From the NCBI GenBank assembly GCA_945882655.1, contig CAMCWL010000008.1:1-32052 (forward strand): DNA of 32,052 nucleotides. Reading direction: 5' to 3'. Below, one piece after another: positions 1,979-16,318 of this stretch. Every line of letters begins with the position of its first letter. The stretch's first letter is position 1. This DNA comes from Opitutus sp. GAS368 (lineage in GTDB: Bacteria > Verrucomicrobiota > Verrucomicrobiia > Opitutales > UBA953). The translations under genes were made by a program, and so were the position numbers. Under the pieces are notes generated by a model, which was not told the DNA's origin, ran no database searches, and saw only the letters and a list, made by a program, of their open reading frames with translations.

Positions 1979-3280
1979 TCAGCTACGCTGCGCGATCGGC
2001 GAGTACTTGCGCTCGGTGTTGCCAACGTAGATCTGGCGCGGGCGATGGATCTTCTGCTTCGGGGTCTCGGCGATTTCCTTCCAGTGCGAGATCCAGCCGG
2101 GCATGCGACCGATGGCGAAGATGACGGTGAACATCTCGGTCGGGATACCGATGGCCTTGAGGATGATGCCCGAGTAGAAGTCGACGTTCGGGTAGAGGTT
2201 GCGCTGCTTGAAGTACGGGTCGTTGAGCGCGGCTTCTTCGAGGCGCATGGCGATGGCCAGAAGCGGATCGTTGATGCCGAGCACCTTGAGGACCTTGTCG
2301 CACTGGGTCTTGATGATCTTGGCCCGCGGGTCGTAGTTCTTGTAAACGCGGTGACCAAAGCCCATCAGGCGCACCTGCTTGGTCTTGTCCTTAGCGTCGG
2401 CGATAAACTTCGAGCCGTCGTCGCCGGAAGCGTGGATTTCCTCAAGCATCTCGATGACGGCCTGGTTGGCACCGCCATGCAGCGGACCCCACAGGGCGCA
2501 AACGCCGGCGGAGACGGACGGGAAGAGGTTGGCGCCACCGGAGGCGACCATGCGGACGGTGGACGTGGAGCAGTTCTGCTCGTGGTCGGCGTGCAGAAGA
2601 AGAATCAAGTCGAGCGCGCGGGCGATCTCCGGATGGACGGCGTAATCGGCGTTGGGCTGCGAGAAGAGCAGGTGCAGGAAGTTGGAGCAGTAATCGAGAC
2701 CCGGCTTCGGGTACACGGGCGGCTCACCTTCCTTGGAGCGGTGGGCGAGCGCGGCGAGGGTGCGGACCTTGGAGATCAGGACGGCGGCGGTCTCGTCGAA
2801 CTTGGCCAAGTCATGGGTACGCTCGTTGGTGCCGAGCTCGGGGTAGTAGCAACCAAGGGTATTCAGGGTGGCGGACAGTACAGCCATCGGATGGGCGTTA
2901 CCAGGGAAGCCGCTGAGCGCGATGCGCAGGCCTTCGTGAATCTGCGAGTTGTCGAGGATGCGGGCCTTGAAGGCGGTCAGCTGGGCGGTCGTCGGGAGTT
3001 CGCCGTAGACAAGCAGATAGGCGGTCTCGATGAAGTTGGACTTCTCAGCGAGCTCTTCGATGCCGTAACCGCGGTAACGAAGGATGCCCTTCTCGCCGTC
3101 GATAAAGGTGACCTTAGATTCGCAGGCGCCGGTGTTGGCGTAGCCGTCGTCGAAAGTGATGTAGCCGGTTTCGTCGCGCAGCTTGCGGACGTCGACCCCG
3201 CGTTCGCCTTCGGTACCGACGACGATGGGGAGGACGATGTCTTTACCGTCCAGGTTGAGAGTGGCGTTTTGAGTGCTCAT
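1979..3280 (-). CDS. gltA: Citrate synthase
   Basis: [79 protein letters not shown]..., [32 protein letters not shown]. Start trimmed from the ORF-track start at 3454 to the ATG at 3280, because the upstream part overlaps hisH. Confidence 0.96.
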
Positions 3281-3315
3281 AGCGGGGGTGGGGCCGCCGG
3301 AGTCGAAAACACGCC

Positions 3316-3960
3316 TCAGCGGGCTGACAAAGTCAGGAAATTGCGGTAGAGTTGCAAGCCTTTGACCTGACTTTTCTCCGGGTGGAACTGGGTCGCGAAG
3401 ACCCGGCCTCGACGGACACCGCTCACAAACCGGCCGGCATAGTCGGTCTCGCACCAGACCAAGGAAGGGTCGGTCTCGACGACGCGGTAGCTATGCACGA
3501 AATAGAACGGTTCCCCTTCGGCCCGCAGGCCTTCGGTCAGGGGGGCACCCGGCTTGAAGATGGCCTCGTTCCAGCCCATATGGGGGATACGCAGACCGGG
3601 CTGGGACGGGAAACGGCGGACAACCCCGGGGAAGATAGCCAGACCAGGGCGGTCAGCCTCCTCGGAGCGCTCAAAGAGAACCTGGAGGCCCATGCAGACG
3701 CCTAGGAAAGGGCGGTCGGCGGCGATCCACCGCTTCAGGAAGGACTCGAAGTCGGTGCGGCGGATGCAATCCATGCAATCAGCCATAGCCCCCTGTCCCG
3801 GGAACACGACCATCTCAGCCTTCTCGGCTTCAGCCGGAGTGGCGGCAAGGAAGGCGTCGGCGCCGGCGGCGACCATAGCACGGCTGACGCTACGAAGGTT
3901 ACCCATCCCGTAATCGATGACCGCTACCCGCGGGCGGCGCACTGACCCAGAGGCTTCCAC
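3316..3960 (-). CDS. hisH: Imidazole glycerol phosphate synthase, glutaminase subunit HisH
   Basis: [65 protein letters not shown]. Confidence 0.95.
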
Positions 3961-3962
3961 GG

Positions 3963-4565
3963 TCAGGCCAGCGTACCCTTGGTGCTCGGCACGCGACCGC
4001 CCTGACGCGGATCGACTTCCACCGCCTCACGCAGCGCGCGGGCGAAGGCCTTGAAGAGCGCTTCGGCGATGTGGTGCGGCTCATCACCGTACTCGAGCTT
4101 GAGGTGCAAATTGCAACCGAGCGAATTGGCGAGTCCCTGGAAGAACTCGCGGACGAGCGCGATATTGAAGTCCTTCACCATGTAATTAGTGATCTCGACC
4201 TGATAGACCATCATGGGACGATTGCTGAGGTCGACGGCGCAACGGGCCAGCGTCTCATCCATCGGCAAGATGAAGAAACCATAGCGGCGGATACCGGCCT
4301 TATCGCCGAGCGCTTCCTTGATGGCCTGACCGAGCACGATGCCCACGTCTTCCACGGTGTGGTGGTAGTCGACGTCGGTGTCGCCGGTAGCCTTGACCTT
4401 AAGGTCGACCAAGGAGTGGCGGGAGAGGAGCGTAAGCATGTGGTCGAAGAAAGCCACACCAGTGGCGATTTCCGACGAACCGGTACCGTCCAAGTTCACC
4501 TCGAGGGCGATCTTGGTCTCGGCGGTGTCCCGGCGGATGCTGGCTTTGCGAACGACTGCGCTCAT
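3963..4565 (-). CDS. hisB: Imidazoleglycerol-phosphate dehydratase
   Basis: [88 protein letters not shown]. Confidence 0.96.
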
Positions 4566-7496: not shown

Positions 7497-8021
7497 TCAG
7501 ACCTCAACGGCCGACGGCTCGTCGGCGGGCATAGCCATCTCTGGCATCACGAAGTTGGGCATCGTGAGCTCAGAGCCCTCTACGCCTTGAGAGAGATCGA
7601 AGTCTTGAGAGAGATCGAAGTCTTGAATCGAGTCGGTAATCAGGCGAAGAGGGATATCGGTGCCGACCAAGACCTGTGCTTCAGCCGCCGGGGCGTCCAC
7701 GTAGGAAAGGAGTCCCGAGTACTCAGCCGGGATGGTGACCTGGAGTTCGACAAGAACCAGCGCGAGCAGACAGAGGTGGGCGAAAGATCGACCCATGCGC
7801 TGACCGAAGGCATGCAGCCAAATCATCACACCTGAAATCGAAAGCTCTTCGCGACGGCTGAGGAAGCTGAGCTGGGCCTTATGGAGGCGGACGCGCGACT
7901 GGAAGCGGACGCGAAGTTCGGGAGACTGACCGAGGGCGGCACGCAGACGGGCGACTTGGGACTCCGAGGCATTACCCTCAAGGAAAGCCACTACCAAGGA
8001 TTCGAATTCAGAGGTGCTCAT
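7497..8021 (-). CDS. Putative anti-sigma factor (single TM) encoded directly after an ECF sigma factor
   Basis: 4-nt overlap with the upstream sigma gene; N-terminus FESLVVAFLEGNASESQVARLRAALGQSPELRVRFQSRVRLHKAQ resembles planctomycete/verrucomicrobial anti-sigma N-termini; one TM (FAHLCLLALVLVELQVTI). Function assigned by context. Confidence 0.6.
   Translation of the reverse strand: MSTSEFESLVVAFLEGNASESQVARLRAALGQSPELRVRFQSRVRLHKAQLSFLSRREELSISGVMIWLHAFGQRMGRSFAHLCLLALVLVELQVTIPAEYSGLLSYVDAPAAEAQVLVGTDIPLRLITDSIQDFDLSQDFDLSQGVEGSELTMPNFVMPEMAMPADEPSAVEV
7586..7626. repeat. In-frame tandem duplication of an 18-nt unit (2 copies plus 5 nt)
   Basis: CTTGAGAGAGATCGAAGT at 7586-7603 and 7604-7621, then CTTGA; encodes QDFDLSQDFDLSQ in the predicted anti-sigma protein. 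Confidence 0.9.
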
Positions 8022-8608
8022 CCGCGGAACTCCTCTCCCATGAGTTCGCGCAAGGCTTCGCGGGCGCGATTGATGCGACTCTTGACGGTACCAATGGAGA
8101 GACCGAGGTCTTCGGCGATCTCTTCATAGGACATGTTGCGGACGTTGCGCATCGTGAGGATACGAGCGTGTTCCGGCTTCAATTGTTCCATGCATTCGGC
8201 AACTTTGTTGACGAATTCATTGTGCTGGGCCTCGTGGCCGGGGCCTTGGGCACCGTCCGAAAGGATGTCATGCAGGGTGGCGCCGGGGTCGTCACCGAGG
8301 TCGGCGTCGAGGGACATGGACTGATCACGCTTCCGACGGCGCCAATACCAGTAACGGTTACGGGCCAGATTCGTGCCGATCTGATGAATCCAGGTCGAGA
8401 AAGTCGCCGTACCCCGGAAGGAAGCCAGCACACGATGGGCCCGAATAAAGGTATCCTGCGTAATTTCCTCCGCGTCCTGGCGATTACGCAGCAGGGAGAA
8501 GACCTTCGCGAAAATACGCCCCTGATACTTCAGAACCAGTTCGTTATAAGCCGAAAGATTCCCCTCACGGGCACGGTCCAAGGCGGACTGGTCGGCTTCG
8601 GTCTCCAT
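8018..8608 (-). CDS. ECF RNA polymerase sigma factor, sigma-70 family
   Basis: Region 2: DAEEITQDTFIRAHRVLASFRGTATFSTWIHQIGTNLARNRYW; region 4: LKPEHARILTMRNVRNMSYEEIAEDLGLSIGTVKSRINRAREALRELM. Confidence 0.93.
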   Translation of the reverse strand: METEADQSALDRAREGNLSAYNELVLKYQGRIFAKVFSLLRNRQDAEEITQDTFIRAHRVLASFRGTATFSTWIHQIGTNLARNRYWYWRRRKRDQSMSLDADLGDDPGATLHDILSDGAQGPGHEAQHNEFVNKVAECMEQLKPEHARILTMRNVRNMSYEEIAEDLGLSIGTVKSRINRAREALRELMGEEFRG

Positions 8609-8726: not shown

Positions 8727-10460
8727 ATGTTCACTTCCAGCAAGAACCCCCCCACCCTCTCTTGGGTAGACTGCCTCAGCGGAGCCCGAGGTCTCATCGA
8801 CAGCCTCCCTTCCTCCCTGCCTGGCGACGACGCCCACCCGTCCCTTTCGTTGGTCAAAAACGGCGAGACCCTCGCCCTTGAACCCTCCGGACACGGTTCA
8901 GCCCTCGTCAATGGCGCCCCGCTCCGTCAGCGACTCGACATCTCCGAAGCCACGACAATCCAACTGGCCTCTGCCCTCCTGGTCGCGGCCCCGGCCGACC
9001 AGCAGAACTTCACCTTCATCCGTACTGACCTCTGGGTACTCTTCGACGCCCAGACCGGCGACCAGCTTGGCGAATTTCCTCCGCAACGCCTGCTCGAGGT
9101 CGCCCAAGAGCTCGGCCGGGCCACCGACACGCTCGCCTGCACGCCGCAGGGACTCGAAGTCGGTTTCAGTCTTTCACAAATCGCGCCACTGCTATCGCCA
9201 CAGGAAGAAGCGCCCATTCGTCCCAGCGGCAAGGCACTGCTCGCCGCCGAACAGAACCGCGGCGCCCACCTCTGTCCGGTCTGCTGGACACGCTTCGACG
9301 CCGGCGACGCACTGAGCATCGCGGTGCACGAAGATCTGCGCGGCGACCCCATCCTCGGCTCCGATGTGCGCCTGCGTTTCCAGCCGACCCGCTTTAACGA
9401 CCAAGGCCTCGCCCTCGACCCGATGGGCCTCGCGTGTACCGACATCGCCTGCCCGCACTGCCGCCGCCAACTTCCGCCGGGCTACCTCGATCGTCCGCAC
9501 CGTATCATCTCGCTCATCGGCGCACCCAGCGCTGGCAAGTCCTACTACCTCGCGGTGCTCACGCGCACGTTGCAAGACCGCCTGCCAGAGGACTTCAACC
9601 TGGCCTTCAAGGATGGCGACCCCAGCGGCAACATGCTGCTCAACCAGATGCGCAACACGCTCTTCTCCGCGGCCACGCCGGAAGACGCACTGCTCGGCAA
9701 GACGGCCCTCGAAGGCGCGACCTACGAGAAGCTCCCCCGCCTCGGCCGCATGGTCTCCCTGCCCCGACCGTTCATTTACTCGATCAGCCGCCCCGGCCAG
9801 CAGCGCAACGAGACCTCGGTCATCCTTTACGATAACGCCGGCGAACACTTCGAGCCCGGCATCGATATCCATGATTCGCCCGGCGCGATGCACGTCGCGA
9901 CGTCGAGCGGACTTATTTTCCTCTTCGACCCCACTGCCAACGCGCGTTTCAAAGCCAAGCTCGTCGGCGTCGATGACCCACAGTTCACGCTCAAGGGACG
10001 CATCGACCAACAGGATAGCATCCTAGCCGAGATGGAGACCCGCATGAAGCGCGTTCTCGGACTCGCACAGGACGAACGCATCAAGACACCACTCGCCTTC
10101 GTCGTCGGCAAGTCGGACACTTGGGAGAAGCTCCTGAGCTCCCCGCTCGAACCGATCATCAAGTCCGGGGGGCTCGATCTTGCCGCCGTCGCCCGCAACT
10201 CCGCCCGCGTCCGCGAGGTGCTCGTCACACTCTGCCCCGGCCTCGTGGCCTCGGCGGAATCGCTCGCTGAACAAATCAGCTACTTCGCAGCTACTTCATT
10301 CGGACACACTCCGGTGATGATTCAAGCCGGACTGAACAAAGGCCGTATCGCCCCCGACCCGCAGCGCCTTGCGCCGGCGCACGTCGAAGAACCCCTCTAT
10401 TGGCTAATGCACCTCGCTTCCCCGGCGATGTTCCCCTCGTCCGAAAACTCCGCCCGCTGA
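8727..10460 (+). CDS. TRAFAC-like P-loop GTPase with zinc ribbon and possible degenerate FHA-like N-terminus
   Basis: Walker A LIGAPSAGKSYYL; G3/Walker B ILYDNAGEH; G4-like FVVGKSD; zinc ribbon HLCPVCWTRF...IACPHCRRQLP directly before the P-loop; N-terminal GHGSALVNGAPL resembles FHA GT-x-VNG. Confidence 0.8.
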   Translation: MFTSSKNPPTLSWVDCLSGARGLIDSLPSSLPGDDAHPSLSLVKNGETLALEPSGHGSALVNGAPLRQRLDISEATTIQLASALLVAAPADQQNFTFIRTDLWVLFDAQTGDQLGEFPPQRLLEVAQELGRATDTLACTPQGLEVGFSLSQIAPLLSPQEEAPIRPSGKALLAAEQNRGAHLCPVCWTRFDAGDALSIAVHEDLRGDPILGSDVRLRFQPTRFNDQGLALDPMGLACTDIACPHCRRQLPPGYLDRPHRIISLIGAPSAGKSYYLAVLTRTLQDRLPEDFNLAFKDGDPSGNMLLNQMRNTLFSAATPEDALLGKTALEGATYEKLPRLGRMVSLPRPFIYSISRPGQQRNETSVILYDNAGEHFEPGIDIHDSPGAMHVATSSGLIFLFDPTANARFKAKLVGVDDPQFTLKGRIDQQDSILAEMETRMKRVLGLAQDERIKTPLAFVVGKSDTWEKLLSSPLEPIIKSGGLDLAAVARNSARVREVLVTLCPGLVASAESLAEQISYFAATSFGHTPVMIQAGLNKGRIAPDPQRLAPAHVEEPLYWLMHLASPAMFPSSENSAR

Positions 10461-12595
10461 TGCCCCTCCAACTTATCTTCACGTCAGCGCCACAGGGACT
10501 CACTCCCGGACGTAGCGGCTATTGCACCATCGCCCGCCACCGCGCTATCCCTGACCGCCTAGCCCAGTTGCTTGAGTCCGTCGGCACGCCGCATGAACGC
10601 CCCGAAGGCGAGACGTACACGTTCCGTATGCTTGAAGCCGGCGGTAAGAACTGGTGCGTACTCTCACGCTTCGTCGCCCGCGGCCTCGACTACACGCAGC
10701 GCGACAACCGCCTCGCCCATCACCTGATCTTCTCTCTCGAAGAAGCTGCCGTCCTCCCGCCGCCCGCCGCCATCGCGGGACGCTGGAAAGGCTGGCGCGA
10801 CGAATGGTCCGGAGCTCCCACCTGGCTCGAAGGCGAGGAACGCCCGCTTCAACTGGAAACGCAGACACCCCTGACGCCCGCCGTGACGTGGCGCGAAGAA
10901 ACCGGCACCGGCGCGAAAGCCGCCTGGCTCATCAACGCTTCCGGCCCCGCTGCGGTCGGCCTGCTCAATCCACCCGAAACCCTGCGCCTCCTCCGACTCC
11001 TCGCCGAAGCCTCCGCGCTCCTCGGTAAGTCTGCTTGGGCCGCCACTTTCACCACCGACGCCACCACCACGGGCAGCGACGGCTTCCTCTGGGCCGTCAA
11101 CTCGACCTCCGCCGCGGCAACAATCGACTTCACCACCGCGAAGTCTCTGCCCGCCCCCTCGGGCGATATCGCCCGTCAGGCCGCCGCCGGACTGACTTCG
11201 CCGAAAGCCGTCGCCGGACAGCCTCAGCGTCGCGCCGCCGCCGCGCCCTCTGCCGCTACCTCCGGCAACAATTCAGCCGCCTGGATTATTGGAGGAGTCA
11301 TCATCCTCGCAGCCGGAGCCGTGGCACTGTTCATGCTGAACCGCCAGCCCGAGCCCACGCCTCCCGCAATCATCGTCGAAGTCAAACCGCAGCCTTCTCC
11401 GGCCGACAACGCCAAGAGCGAAGAGATCCTAAAAGCCAACCGCGCCCTCACCGAAATCCAAGGATTAATGGACTCCGATGATTTCATGGGCGCCGCCAAG
11501 CTATGGGCGGAGACCAGTAAACTTTCGCCGACCTTTGTCCGTAACTACCGCGAACAGATTCTGCCTCGAATCCTCAGCAACTTCTCCACCAGCGTAACGA
11601 AGCAACTCCTGAGCCGTTTAGATCGTCCAGGAATCCTGAACGACCCGAAGTCCATCCTGGCATCAATCACCGAAGCCAAAGAAGCTCTCCAGCTCGGAGC
11701 GGAAATTAAAGTACCGCAGGACGAACCATGGAAGCGCCTGCAGGCCTGCCTCGATCGCGCCCAGTCTCTGACCACTATCGAAGTGCGCCCGACGATGGTG
11801 ATCCCCGGCGAATGGCGAACCGGCGAATCGGGACCAAACTCCCCGTCGCAGGCCGACTTCACTCTTTCCCGCTCCGCCGCCGACGCTGTGACCAAGTTCG
11901 TCGAGGCATCCGGGGCAACCCAGCGCGTGTCCGTTCAGATTCGTATCCGCCTGCTCGCCTTCACCTCCCCTCACCTCCGCGACGACAGTACGAAATACCT
12001 TAACGGCGAGATCCGTCGCACGCCACAGGCCACCTGGATTGAATCGACCCCCGAGCCCGGTAAACTCCCTGCCATCGGCATCGGACTGAGGAATGGCCGC
12101 AATGAAGTCTCGCTCAACTTCCCCACCGGCGAAGGCGCCCGTGGTGGCGCAAATCGCTTGATTGAAGTGATTCTCCCGAACGGTGATCGTCAGTGCTTCG
12201 CGCTCATCAGTGACCTCCCCGCTCTCCAGCCGCTGAACCTCGGCCCGGATGCACTGCTGCTAGACGCCGACACGGGCGTCATCCGTCCTGCCCCCTGGGC
12301 CGAAAGCGCGGTCAATGCCTTCATCTGGACCAATGGCTCAATCGGACTTTATCCGAATGGCCACGAATTCCCCGATCGCGACCTCCCTTCAATCCGCGCC
12401 ACTCGCTCCATGCTCGAGACCGACATCATCCGCCTTGAAAGCAAGCAAGGCCCCGGCACGCCGCCCTACGAAGTCGTCGCCCAGCGCCGCAAACTCTTCA
12501 AGGAAGGTAAGCTCATGCAGGCGGGTGCTCCGTGGTCAATCCAAGCCATCGACGTGAACGGTGCGGCCGGACCCCGACTGCTGGAATTCCGCTGA
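10460..12595 (+). CDS. GTPase-associated protein 1-like (GAP1-N2-like) single-TM protein
   Basis: N-terminus MPLQLIFTSAPQGLTPGRSGYCTIARHRAIPDRLAQLLESVG...RLAHHLIFS resembles GAP1-N domains; TM AAWIIGGVIILAAGAVALFML around 11276-11340. Start codon overlaps the upstream stop (TGATG); start moved from 10400 to 10460. Confidence 0.7.
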   Translation: MPLQLIFTSAPQGLTPGRSGYCTIARHRAIPDRLAQLLESVGTPHERPEGETYTFRMLEAGGKNWCVLSRFVARGLDYTQRDNRLAHHLIFSLEEAAVLPPPAAIAGRWKGWRDEWSGAPTWLEGEERPLQLETQTPLTPAVTWREETGTGAKAAWLINASGPAAVGLLNPPETLRLLRLLAEASALLGKSAWAATFTTDATTTGSDGFLWAVNSTSAAATIDFTTAKSLPAPSGDIARQAAAGLTSPKAVAGQPQRRAAAAPSAATSGNNSAAWIIGGVIILAAGAVALFMLNRQPEPTPPAIIVEVKPQPSPADNAKSEEILKANRALTEIQGLMDSDDFMGAAKLWAETSKLSPTFVRNYREQILPRILSNFSTSVTKQLLSRLDRPGILNDPKSILASITEAKEALQLGAEIKVPQDEPWKRLQACLDRAQSLTTIEVRPTMVIPGEWRTGESGPNSPSQADFTLSRSAADAVTKFVEASGATQRVSVQIRIRLLAFTSPHLRDDSTKYLNGEIRRTPQATWIESTPEPGKLPAIGIGLRNGRNEVSLNFPTGEGARGGANRLIEVILPNGDRQCFALISDLPALQPLNLGPDALLLDADTGVIRPAPWAESAVNAFIWTNGSIGLYPNGHEFPDRDLPSIRATRSMLETDIIRLESKQGPGTPPYEVVAQRRKLFKEGKLMQAGAPWSIQAIDVNGAAGPRLLEFR

Positions 12596-12598
12596 TCC

Positions 12599-15547
12599 AT
12601 GCAGGCCGAACGCCTCATCGCCCGCATTCGCGGACAGCTCGAACTCGGCACCCCCGACCTCGAGGCGCGTTCCCTCGCAGGCGAATACGCCGCTCTGTGC
12701 CAGCGCGCCCGCGAGCGCCTCGAACAGTGTGCGACGCTCGTACGCAGCGGCAACGAGCACGCCGCCTTCCAGTCCGCGGAATCCGACCCTGATCTCCTTG
12801 GGCTCTGCGCCCTGCTGAGCTTCGCGGAGTCTGACCGTTGGCACGCCCTCTGCCGGGAGCGCGGCCTGCCCGCCGGCTTCCCTCTCGACGGCCAGCATGT
12901 GCTCGCCGTCGAAAGCCTCTACGGTCGCGAGATCGGCGAAAGCCACCCGCTCTACGGCGATTACCGCGACGCCATTCGCCGTCGCGAGGAAGACCGCGCC
13001 CTCTCCGTCCTGCGTTCGATTGTTCGGATTAACCCGAACGACCCTAACGCCCGCTCTGAACTCGCCCGACTCTCCGCCAAGTTCCTCCGGGAATCACTCG
13101 GCAAGGTCGCGACCTTCTTTGAGCAAGGCCGCGAAGAGGAAGCCGTCGAGCTGATGAATCGCATGGAGCGCTTCGGCGCCAACGACCTCGCTGACGAGCC
13201 GCGCTGGGATGACGCCCTTGCCCGCCGCGTGGCCTGGCTGCGCTCAAAGGCGGCTCAACAGGTCACGACGCTCGTCGCCGACGCCGCTGAAGCGCGCGCG
13301 GGAGGCCACTGGGAAGCCTGCGCCGCCTCACTGGGCCGAGTTCGCTCCCTCGAGCGCGACCATCAACTCACCCTGCCCGCCGAACTCTCTACCCAAATCG
13401 TCGAGCTCGAAGCCTGGGCTGGCGAACTAGCTGGCGTCGCGGAAGCCGAAGCCAGCCTGCGCGCCACGATTGAAAGCCTGAACGACGAATGGGCGACACT
13501 CCAACAGGAAGCCGCCCGCGGCTCCTCTCCCGCCATTCTCATCGTCCGCCTGAGTTCCTGGCTCGAGCGCGCGACGCCGCAGGCTGAACGTCTACCCGAA
13601 GGCATCCTGCGCGAAGTGCGCGCCCTCCGCCAGAACACCCGCGCCCGCTTGAACCGACGCTACATGGTGATGACGACCTCCTGGGTCGCCAGCCTGTTGC
13701 TCGTCATTGCGGGCGTGGTCTACTGGAATATCCTCAAGACGAAGGAAGAAGAATCGCGGGACCGTTTCTCCGAAGCCTCCCGCCTCATCGAACTCTACGA
13801 TCATCCGGCCGCGCTCGTCGCGCTCGACGAATTCGAACGCGGCGGCATCTCCGCTGCCGACCAAGCCGTGCGTAAGGCGCAGACGGCTCCGCTCCGTCAG
13901 CGCCTGGCCACGCAGAACGCCGATGGGCAGCGACTGCATCTCGAAGCGCTGGCGCTCGCGGATCGACGTAAACAAGGTCTGACTTTAGGTAACGTCGCCG
14001 AGACGGAAAGCCGCGCCAGCAAGTATCTTCAGGAATTCAACCAAGTGGGCGGCAGCCTTCAGTCCAAACTCAAGGCCATCCTCCCGGAACCCGAAGGCCT
14101 ATTATCCGCCTGCCGACAGATGCTGGATCGCACCCGCAACGACGTCGCCACCCAGATCGTGCTCCTCAACAAAGCCATGGGGGATGACAACGTCAGCGAC
14201 CTCGCCAAGGCGGCCGAGGCCCTCGAGCGCCTCCGCCTCCTGCTCAAGACCTTGACCGACGCTAAAGACAAGGACCTCGACTCCGCTTTGGCCGCAGCCG
14301 ACCGGGCCGAGTTACGACTCGCGGGCGAACGTAAGACGATCGCCGCGCTCAAAGGTCTCGGTAAAGCAGCTGACCTTGCGGGCTACCTCGCCGCCCTCTC
14401 CGATACCGCCGCGAATACCGTCGGCGAAAAATCTGACCTCAGTTCCCGCGCCTCCTTCGTCTTCGCCCGTGCACCCACTCTGCAAGCCCTTCCACGTTCG
14501 GCCCTCGCCCCACGCGTCGGCGCAATGTGGGATGCTGCCGCCACGGCTGACCCGTCAGGCATCTTTAATCCCGCTATATTGACCGACGTCGAGCAACGCG
14601 GTCTGCGCACCCTCTCCGATACGTCCCAAGCAGATTCGCTCCGCCGCTACACGCTCAACCTTTATTCCGTCCGCGGAATCGCGACGGGCCGCACAGTCTT
14701 CGTGATTGGCGACATCACCGAATCCAAGCGGAACATCACGGATGGCGTCGAGTTCAGCCAGAAGGCCAAGGAGCTTACCCGCGAAGGGGCGGTGGTCGAA
14801 ATCACCTGGAGCCGTCGCGAATTCAATAACGGGGTGCGCGCGGGCGAGGAGATTACCAATCCCGCTACGATCAACGAATTAGACTTCATCCGTCAGGTCA
14901 GCCGCTTTCAGGACGCCAAGACGGGCAAACTACTCGAACCGCTCATTCGCACGATGGACCGAGTCCGCCGGAGCGACTCGCGCTACCCGGAGTTGCGTGC
15001 CTACCAACTCCAGGAACTTTATAGGCTCGCGACCAGCCGACCAGACGCCTGGGGCTTACTCTTCTCTCCCTCCGCCCAGCGCGATGCCGAGCAGTTACGC
15101 CGCATCACGCAAAATGCGCTGCGTCCTTACGACTTCCTCTTCAAGGACAAGTGGGCCGACATTCAGCTAGAGTTGCGCGCCTTCCTGACTCCCCCTGGTG
15201 GCGCCGGCTACGCCGAGGAGGCCCGCTTCTGGCGCGCGACCTTCGCCAACCTACGTAATCGTAAGCTCATCTTCGCCGGCTGGGTCGGCCGTGACGGTAA
15301 GCCCGAGCTCCGTGAGACGATCAAGGGTAGCGCGCTCTACGGTCTCGATAACGAAGGCAAGGCCACGGTGCTCTTCCGCGTCGGCGACGACGGCGAGGTC
15401 AAGCGTGTCGCTGAAGCCGCACCCCTCACCCCGTTGCTGCGTTACCCTGGCACTGTCGCCGAAGCCGCGCAGGCGGCCGGCATCCCGAAAGGATTGCTCG
15501 CGCCCGAAGGCGGCTGGGAAACCCTCCTCCAAGGCCGAGATCTCTGA
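12599..15547 (+). CDS. Large hypothetical protein, mostly helical, single central TM
   Basis: Begins 3 nt after the upstream stop; long Ala/Glu/Arg-rich helices; TM VMTTSWVASLLLVIAGVVYWNIL from about 13664. No family recognised. Confidence 0.85.
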   Translation: MQAERLIARIRGQLELGTPDLEARSLAGEYAALCQRARERLEQCATLVRSGNEHAAFQSAESDPDLLGLCALLSFAESDRWHALCRERGLPAGFPLDGQHVLAVESLYGREIGESHPLYGDYRDAIRRREEDRALSVLRSIVRINPNDPNARSELARLSAKFLRESLGKVATFFEQGREEEAVELMNRMERFGANDLADEPRWDDALARRVAWLRSKAAQQVTTLVADAAEARAGGHWEACAASLGRVRSLERDHQLTLPAELSTQIVELEAWAGELAGVAEAEASLRATIESLNDEWATLQQEAARGSSPAILIVRLSSWLERATPQAERLPEGILREVRALRQNTRARLNRRYMVMTTSWVASLLLVIAGVVYWNILKTKEEESRDRFSEASRLIELYDHPAALVALDEFERGGISAADQAVRKAQTAPLRQRLATQNADGQRLHLEALALADRRKQGLTLGNVAETESRASKYLQEFNQVGGSLQSKLKAILPEPEGLLSACRQMLDRTRNDVATQIVLLNKAMGDDNVSDLAKAAEALERLRLLLKTLTDAKDKDLDSALAAADRAELRLAGERKTIAALKGLGKAADLAGYLAALSDTAANTVGEKSDLSSRASFVFARAPTLQALPRSALAPRVGAMWDAAATADPSGIFNPAILTDVEQRGLRTLSDTSQADSLRRYTLNLYSVRGIATGRTVFVIGDITESKRNITDGVEFSQKAKELTREGAVVEITWSRREFNNGVRAGEEITNPATINELDFIRQVSRFQDAKTGKLLEPLIRTMDRVRRSDSRYPELRAYQLQELYRLATSRPDAWGLLFSPSAQRDAEQLRRITQNALRPYDFLFKDKWADIQLELRAFLTPPGGAGYAEEARFWRATFANLRNRKLIFAGWVGRDGKPELRETIKGSALYGLDNEGKATVLFRVGDDGEVKRVAEAAPLTPLLRYPGTVAEAAQAAGIPKGLLAPEGGWETLLQGRDL

Positions 15548-15550
15548 ACG

Positions 15551-16183
15551 ATGTCACGCCCTACCCAATTCCGCCTCCGCTGGAAAGGCGCCGTCACCGG
15601 CCCCTTCCCGCTCGTTCGCGTGAGCGAGATGCTCCGGGCGGGCGAGATCAGCCTCCTGCATAACATTGAAGTCGACGGATCCTGGATGACAGTCCGCGAT
15701 TACTTCCGTGCCATCGGCCTCAGCCGCACCTCCTCGGTTTCGTCCACAGATTCGTCCGGACACGGCGCCGACACACCGCCCCCACCGCCAGGAGCAGAGC
15801 TCCCGCTCGGTGAATCACTCGCGCCCGTCGACGCCCGCAATGCCGCCGGCGAATCTCTCGAGCGTGCGGTGCGCGAAGGCTACCTCTGGTGCGGCTCGAC
15901 CTTCCTGCTCCCGCCGCTCTTCGCATTGCTCATCTACGCAGTCTACATCTTGGATACCGACCGCCAAATCTCGCGCACGATGCTGCTCATCCTGCTCGCC
16001 TTCACGACCACGCCGGCGGCACTCCTACCAATCCTCTTCGTCCGGAAGCTGGGCGTGACCCTGGAACAAGAAGGCCTGTCGGACATCCGCCAAACTCAGG
16101 CAAATCTCGTGATCGTCCTCGGTTTCCTGAGCCTAGCCCTGTGGATGCTCTGCTTCTTCGTACTCCTTCCCACCCACCCCTAA
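15551..16183 (+). CDS. GYF_2-like domain protein with C-terminal TM segments
   Basis: N-terminus FRLRWKGAVTGPFPLVRVSEMLRAGEISLLHNIEVDGSWMTVRDY resembles GYF_2 (GPF, basis for W..V); hydrophobic segments FLLPPLFALLIYAVYIL, MLLILLAFTTTPAALLPILFV, LVIVLGFLSLALWMLCFFVLL. Begins 3 nt after the upstream stop. Confidence 0.72.
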   Translation: MSRPTQFRLRWKGAVTGPFPLVRVSEMLRAGEISLLHNIEVDGSWMTVRDYFRAIGLSRTSSVSSTDSSGHGADTPPPPPGAELPLGESLAPVDARNAAGESLERAVREGYLWCGSTFLLPPLFALLIYAVYILDTDRQISRTMLLILLAFTTTPAALLPILFVRKLGVTLEQEGLSDIRQTQANLVIVLGFLSLALWMLCFFVLLPTHP

Positions 16184-16241: not shown

Positions 16242-16318
16242 GGTAGTGTAGCTCAGTTGGTTAGAGCGAGGGACTCATAAGCCCTAGGTCGGCAGTTCGA
16301 TCCTGCCCACTACCACCA
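16242..16318 (+). tRNA. tRNA with CAU anticodon (elongator Met, or Ile2 if lysidine-modified); CCA encoded
   Basis: GGTAGTG acceptor pairs with CACTACC; D stem GCTC/GAGC; anticodon loop CTCATAA; T arm GGCAG-TTCGATC-CTGCC; discriminator A plus CCA; 77 nt. Confidence 0.95.

Follow-up and report, generated by a model that had tools for sequence, protein, structure and literature searches.

The orphan third gene (ORF3) of a four-gene operon in a lake bacterium defines a large new core family that is tied to a GTPase across Verrucomicrobiota. The operon spans 8727-16183 of the window, the whole stretch of 32,052 nucleotides analysed here and an entire contig of a 1.84 Mb MAG, whose near relatives with names are mostly uncultured Opitutia such as UBA953. 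Its four co-directional plus-strand genes (table 1) encode a GTPase, a GAP1 protein, ORF3 and a GYF-like protein, and we give even chances to the reading that they form an inner-membrane scaffold switched by the GTPase, a Verrucomicrobiota variant of the DO-GTPase2/GAP1-N2 systems.

Table 1. Features of the operon and its flanks, with positions in the window; domain and TM assignments are predictions.
Feature	Position	Strand	Length	Architecture or matches
Candidate anti-sigma factor	7497..8021	-		Weak zf-HC2 match (PF13490, 14.6 bits, cut-off 22.2); TM 79-97
ECF sigma factor	8018..8608	-		Sigma70_r2 and r4_2 matches; divergent from the GTPase gene
GTPase	8727..10460	+	577 aa	From N to C: FHA-like (about 15-100), possible degenerate GYF-like segment, zinc ribbon, TRAFAC-type G domain (GAPSAGKS, DNAGE); no TM
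GAP1	10460..12595	+	711 aa	N-terminal GAP1-N2 domain, TM 275-293, predicted periplasmic helical and beta region
ORF3	12599..15547	+	982 aa	Cytosolic half made up of helices only, TM 356-374, then helical repeats and beta domains on the periplasmic side (predicted)
GYF-like protein	15551..16183	+	210 aa	GYF-like N-terminal domain, PPPPPG linker, three TM helices
tRNA-Met (CAT)	16242-16318			

The close packing described in the initial annotation is confirmed in its coordinates and its junctions, a TGATG overlap between the GTPase and GAP1 genes followed by 3-nt gaps at both GAP1/ORF3 and ORF3/GYF. In complete loci of the genus the successive junctions measure -1 to 8 nt, 1 to 6 nt and 2 to 5 nt. 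Low dN/dS shows that the four frames are real genes, not chance ORFs. TM segments are predicted in three of the four products, as had been reported, and the proposal of a membrane-associated complex is supported. A PADLOC search (E<=0.1) with the four window proteins and an NCBIfam search returned no match, while a sigma-70 promoter scan gave nothing above shuffled sequences. Between the GYF gene and rsfS there is a tRNA-Met gene.

The P-loop, the DNAGE motif and the zinc ribbon attributed to the first product are all present and conserved among its homologues. The zinc-ribbon cysteines, CPVC...CPHC, correspond to C183/C186 and C242/C245, two CxxC pairs that would make one apparent zinc ribbon as judged from the sequence. 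Across 19 diverse homologues the Walker B region reads DxAGE, with D369, A371 and G372 invariant and the glutamate, E373, conserved in at least 90%. The assignment of this protein to the DO-GTPase2 kind holds at the level of the family, PF19993 being matched by 16 of 19 diverse homologues (E<=0.01) and passed by the L122 copy at 30.7 bits, but the window copy itself stays below the cut-off of 27 (24.4 bits, E 2.6e-5). The Pfam FHA and GYF_2 domains are found in 4/19 and 3/19 homologues, respectively, and the family profile matches FHA structures over positions 15-100 (E 0.0015). In the window GTPase the putative FHA part is divergent, and the possible GYF-like segment is read off the alignment only.

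The second product had been likened to GTPase-associated protein 1 in its N-domain, and this proved right: PF20013 (GAP1-N2) matches it at 57.1 bits against a cut-off of 24. Neither GAP1-M nor GAP1-C has a Pfam match at E<=1 in this protein. AlphaFold2 models of GAP1 (pLDDT 87.5) and ORF3 (pLDDT 86.1) each begin with an N-terminal domain and a single TM helix, followed by a helical region and beta domains, and hydropathy and charge suggest that both proteins have the N-terminus inside. Homology between the two is not detectable by hhalign (probability 1.9%), and a fold search of the GAP1 model against the PDB gave no match at E<=0.001. For ORF3, the Pfam search was without informative match and the search of PDB sequences yielded only weak coiled-coil, designed-helix or repeat matches. 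The fold search of its model was likewise uninformative, the lone match with E<0.001 being a designed helical toroid with a TM-score of 0.09-0.14.

The distribution of ORF3 follows that of the GTPase. Among 388 genomes of the phylum the ORF3 profile has matches in 70 and the GTPase in 74, with both in 65 (Fisher p 1.5e-57, a value that is overstated, as the genomes are not independent and the profile derives from linked copies). In several GTPase genomes with no ORF3 match, the place of ORF3 is taken by a shorter frame (about 700 aa), perhaps a diverged version of the gene. In one genome (G039) the GTPase stands alone at its locus (L059, 6648-8516) and an ORF3 homologue lies on another contig (C49), and in several Puniceicoccales MAG loci (L186-L192, L209) the GTPase has no GAP1 or ORF3 called alongside. 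The viral contigs searched for ORF3 relatives contained none.

The fourth product has no Pfam match of its own in the window. GYF_2 is matched by 9 of 20 locus-linked homologues, and the protein is considered GYF-like by this homology only. Some relatives' GYF proteins carry trypsin or PrsW domains.

Within the genus the operon is a fixed feature. A GTPase match is found in about 34 of 37 genomes (the window's own included), some of them only fragments, and wherever the contig is long enough the same four genes follow in the same order between the ECF sigma/ptsI/his side and rsfS-nadD, a variable effector component not being seen. We sought a clean empty site in the genus and found none; G011 and G025 have no GTPase match, but G011 is also without nadD, and the contig of G025 ends just after rsfS. 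Elsewhere in the family the locus recurs in a second genus (G433) and is absent from a third (G201, G228 and G356). The expectation that the genes would co-occur in relatives is thereby upheld, by the genus synteny and by the 65 phylum genomes above. Against near relatives dN/dS comes to about 0.04-0.15 in the three large genes and, with two near relatives compared, to 0.11-0.13 in the GYF gene. Seven relatives were compared, and with the most distant of them it climbs to 0.17-0.39, the GYF gene being fastest there. GTPase identity tracks that of ptsI, nadD and rsfS (r about 0.91-0.93). The four genes are vertically inherited in the genus and under purifying selection. Isolated broken copies occur, with the GTPase in fragments with stops in L060 (G015), a split ORF3 in L050 (G020) and one TAA in the GTPase of L029 (G017), and these could be MAG assembly errors or signs of decay.

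The ECF sigma gene overlaps that of the candidate anti-sigma factor, which is syntenic within the genus, and its product is 83-99% identical in most genus genomes. In other Opitutales lineages a divergent ECF sigma also sits beside the GTPase gene, where it is only 41-48% identical, and in L056 the downstream neighbours are unlike those of the window though the divergent sigma is present. Since the divergent sigma is kept at this low identity while the downstream neighbours differ, a functional link between sigma factor and operon is favoured, and the ECF sigma is a probable regulator of the operon. The same sigma family is found in several genomes of the order that have no GTPase, so the association is not exclusive.

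At least 21 loci of relatives have, along with the core, genes for a MotA/TolQ/ExbB subunit and for TolR-like proteins, usually in the order GTPase-GAP1-ORF3-GYF-MotA-TolR1-TolR2. All eight aligned MotA homologues match PF01618, and the profile of this subfamily found no match among PDB sequences. Of the 34 genomes with strong matches to it (E about 1e-95 or better), 33 have the GTPase. The distance to the GTPase is at most 12 kb for 28 of these 33 MotA copies and 23 kb for one, and the remaining four are on other contigs. The corresponding Fisher p of 4e-26 is overstated, the profile having been built from operon-linked copies and the genomes not being independent. A profile comparison with hhalign shows the two small protein families to be homologous (98.9%), and each has an invariant or near-invariant Asp where the TM helix starts. 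The two proteins put through a Pfam scan had no match, ExbD included, and the TolR1-like profile against the PDB returned coiled-coil noise only; we call them TolR-like by their apparent anatomy (Asp and TM helix) and their adjacency. At L125 a vWA-domain protein (3209-4249) follows the motor genes, and similar-sized ORFs hold the same position in L127, L128 and L130. In the family f51 locus L115 (11004-14276) the core is followed by a PilM-like protein (PF11104), a weakly PilO-like one and a small membrane protein, with no MotA/TolR, and L116 and L117 have a similar layout.

The window genus has no member of this MotA subfamily, and the three MotA_ExbB proteins of the window genome are unlinked to the operon. 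Since loci with the motor exist in the window's own order (L057, L098) and class (L102) as well as in more distant lineages, a loss of the motor by the window lineage seems likelier than several gains. The absence of the motor from the genus also makes a motor-coupled mechanism inapplicable to the window copy as such.

How might such a scaffold operate? We propose that the GTPase would dock, in one nucleotide state, on the N-terminal domains that GAP1 and ORF3 would expose to the cytosol, while the GYF domain would tether a proline-rich partner. Switching of the GTPase might then alter GAP1/ORF3 assembly or periplasmic engagement and, where present, the proton motor would either drive the complex or be gated by it. 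The core, which is all that the window genus has, is probably controlled by the divergent ECF sigma and would serve in envelope maintenance or surface organisation. A wider reading, which we put forward tentatively as somewhat more apt to be wrong than right, is that the phylum has a widespread, as yet undescribed trans-envelope machine made of a DO-GTPase (FHA/zinc-ribbon/GYF), GAP1, ORF3 and a proton motor (MotA/TolQ-type plus two TolR-like subunits), convergent with the parts list of Myxococcus gliding, and that the window genus has kept a stripped core under an ECF sigma.

One competitor in function is a conflict system, anti-phage or abortive-infection, in which GAP1 and ORF3 would sense an invader, the GTPase would set the threshold and a membrane effector would kill the cell. 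It has precedent, since main-text passages of Kaur, Burroughs, Iyer and Aravind 2020 (eLife 9:e52696, PMC7159879) class GAP1-N2/DO-GTPase as membrane-proximal, diversifying conflict systems with GYF-TM partners in planctomycetes, and the membrane-rich GYF protein, or the trypsin and PrsW domains of its relatives, could be effectors. Against it, there is no variable effector, and across the genus the four genes and their chromosomal site stay constant, with vertical inheritance, purifying selection, housekeeping neighbours and no PADLOC match. We regard it as unlikely, and the defence role suggested in the initial annotation is not borne out by a locus so fixed, vertical and constant; a fixed locus of constant composition fits envelope machinery better than diversifying defence. 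The persistence of four functionless genes after loss of the motor, a decaying remnant, would accord with the missing motor and the few broken copies (G015, G017, L050), but a dN/dS far below 1 and four intact, tight frames in nearly all complete loci largely refute it and leave it a very slim chance.

Another possibility, on which we would place little weight, is a Verrucomicrobiota counterpart of the Agl-Glt machine of Myxococcus. Such a trans-envelope complex would be regulated by the GTPase, powered by protons and used for motility on surfaces, for adhesion or to transport surface polymers, and the window genus would have a derivative of it that is without the motor. The GTPase, the FHA, the zinc ribbon and GYF, the MotA/TolQ subunit with its two TolR-like partners, the vWA protein that follows the motor in L125 and the modelled helical envelope-spanning proteins would all suit such a machine; however, the GTPase family is not that of MglA, the FHA is on the GTPase and not on a TonB-like protein, and the window genus has no motor. 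With the scaffold as the preferred reading, the wider significance is that DO-GTPase/GAP1 systems have so far been read as defence, whereas a phylum-wide lineage, fixed and vertical in this genus and repeatedly motor-joined, suggests that part of them are envelope machinery. Besides the new core family, the analysis yields gene sets that can be tested, Prosthecobacter relatives included.

The closest described systems are the DO-GTPase2/GAP1-N2 ones of Kaur et al. 2020 (PMC7159879), whose main-text passages name verrucomicrobiae among the hosts. The operon shares with them a GAP1-N2 gene next to that of a DO-GTPase2-like protein with an apparent zinc ribbon, the GAP1 TM segment and, judged by homology, a GYF-TM partner like that of planctomycetes. 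The view that it is under-described therefore stands in part: the GTPase/GAP1-N2 core with a GYF-TM partner is already in that paper, but the ORF3 family, the MotA/TolR-like module and the ECF sigma link are not in its main-text passages, and a word search of the main text finds no MotA, TolQ, ExbB, TolR or RDD. A literature search for the combination of GTPase, motor and GYF retrieved no describing paper. Unlike the systems of Kaur et al., the window operon has no detected GAP1-M, GAP1-C or FNIII (the last without a Pfam match in any of the four products) and has the large ORF3 instead, as well as an FHA-like GTPase N-terminus, a fixed composition in the genus and, in relatives, MotA/TolR-like and ECF sigma genes. 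Its fourth protein has one GYF-like copy where these passages describe a pair, and they give two N-terminal zinc ribbons on the GTPase as usual, not universal.

The motor-bearing relatives invite further comparisons. They share the PF01618 channel family with Tol-Pal/ExbBD, from which they differ in that their TolR-like subunits form two paralogous families, with no Pfam ExbD match in the two proteins scanned, and are linked to the GTPase, GAP1 and ORF3. In Zorya, a MotA-type subunit and B-like partner subunits stand beside a nucleotide-hydrolysing protein, as they do in these relatives, but here the enzyme is a GTPase rather than an ATPase, no helicase or nuclease was found and the four proteins have no PADLOC match. 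In the Agl-Glt machine MglA is the GTPase, and GltJ carries zinc-ribbon and GYF domains. In Myxococcus xanthus, AglR is TolQ-type, AglQ and AglS are TolR-type and GltG has an FHA domain (PMC3169522). The operon resembles this machine in its putative regulatory GTPase and its FHA-like, zinc-ribbon and GYF-like parts, to which the motor-bearing relatives add a TolQ-type and two TolR-like subunits. It departs from it in the family of the GTPase, in the domain combinations and in that FHA belongs to the GTPase and not to a TonB-like protein, and the window operon is without the TolQ-type and two TolR-type subunits that are present in 21 relatives' loci. By analogy, the motor-bearing relatives would thus resemble Agl-Glt in their parts list rather than belong to it.
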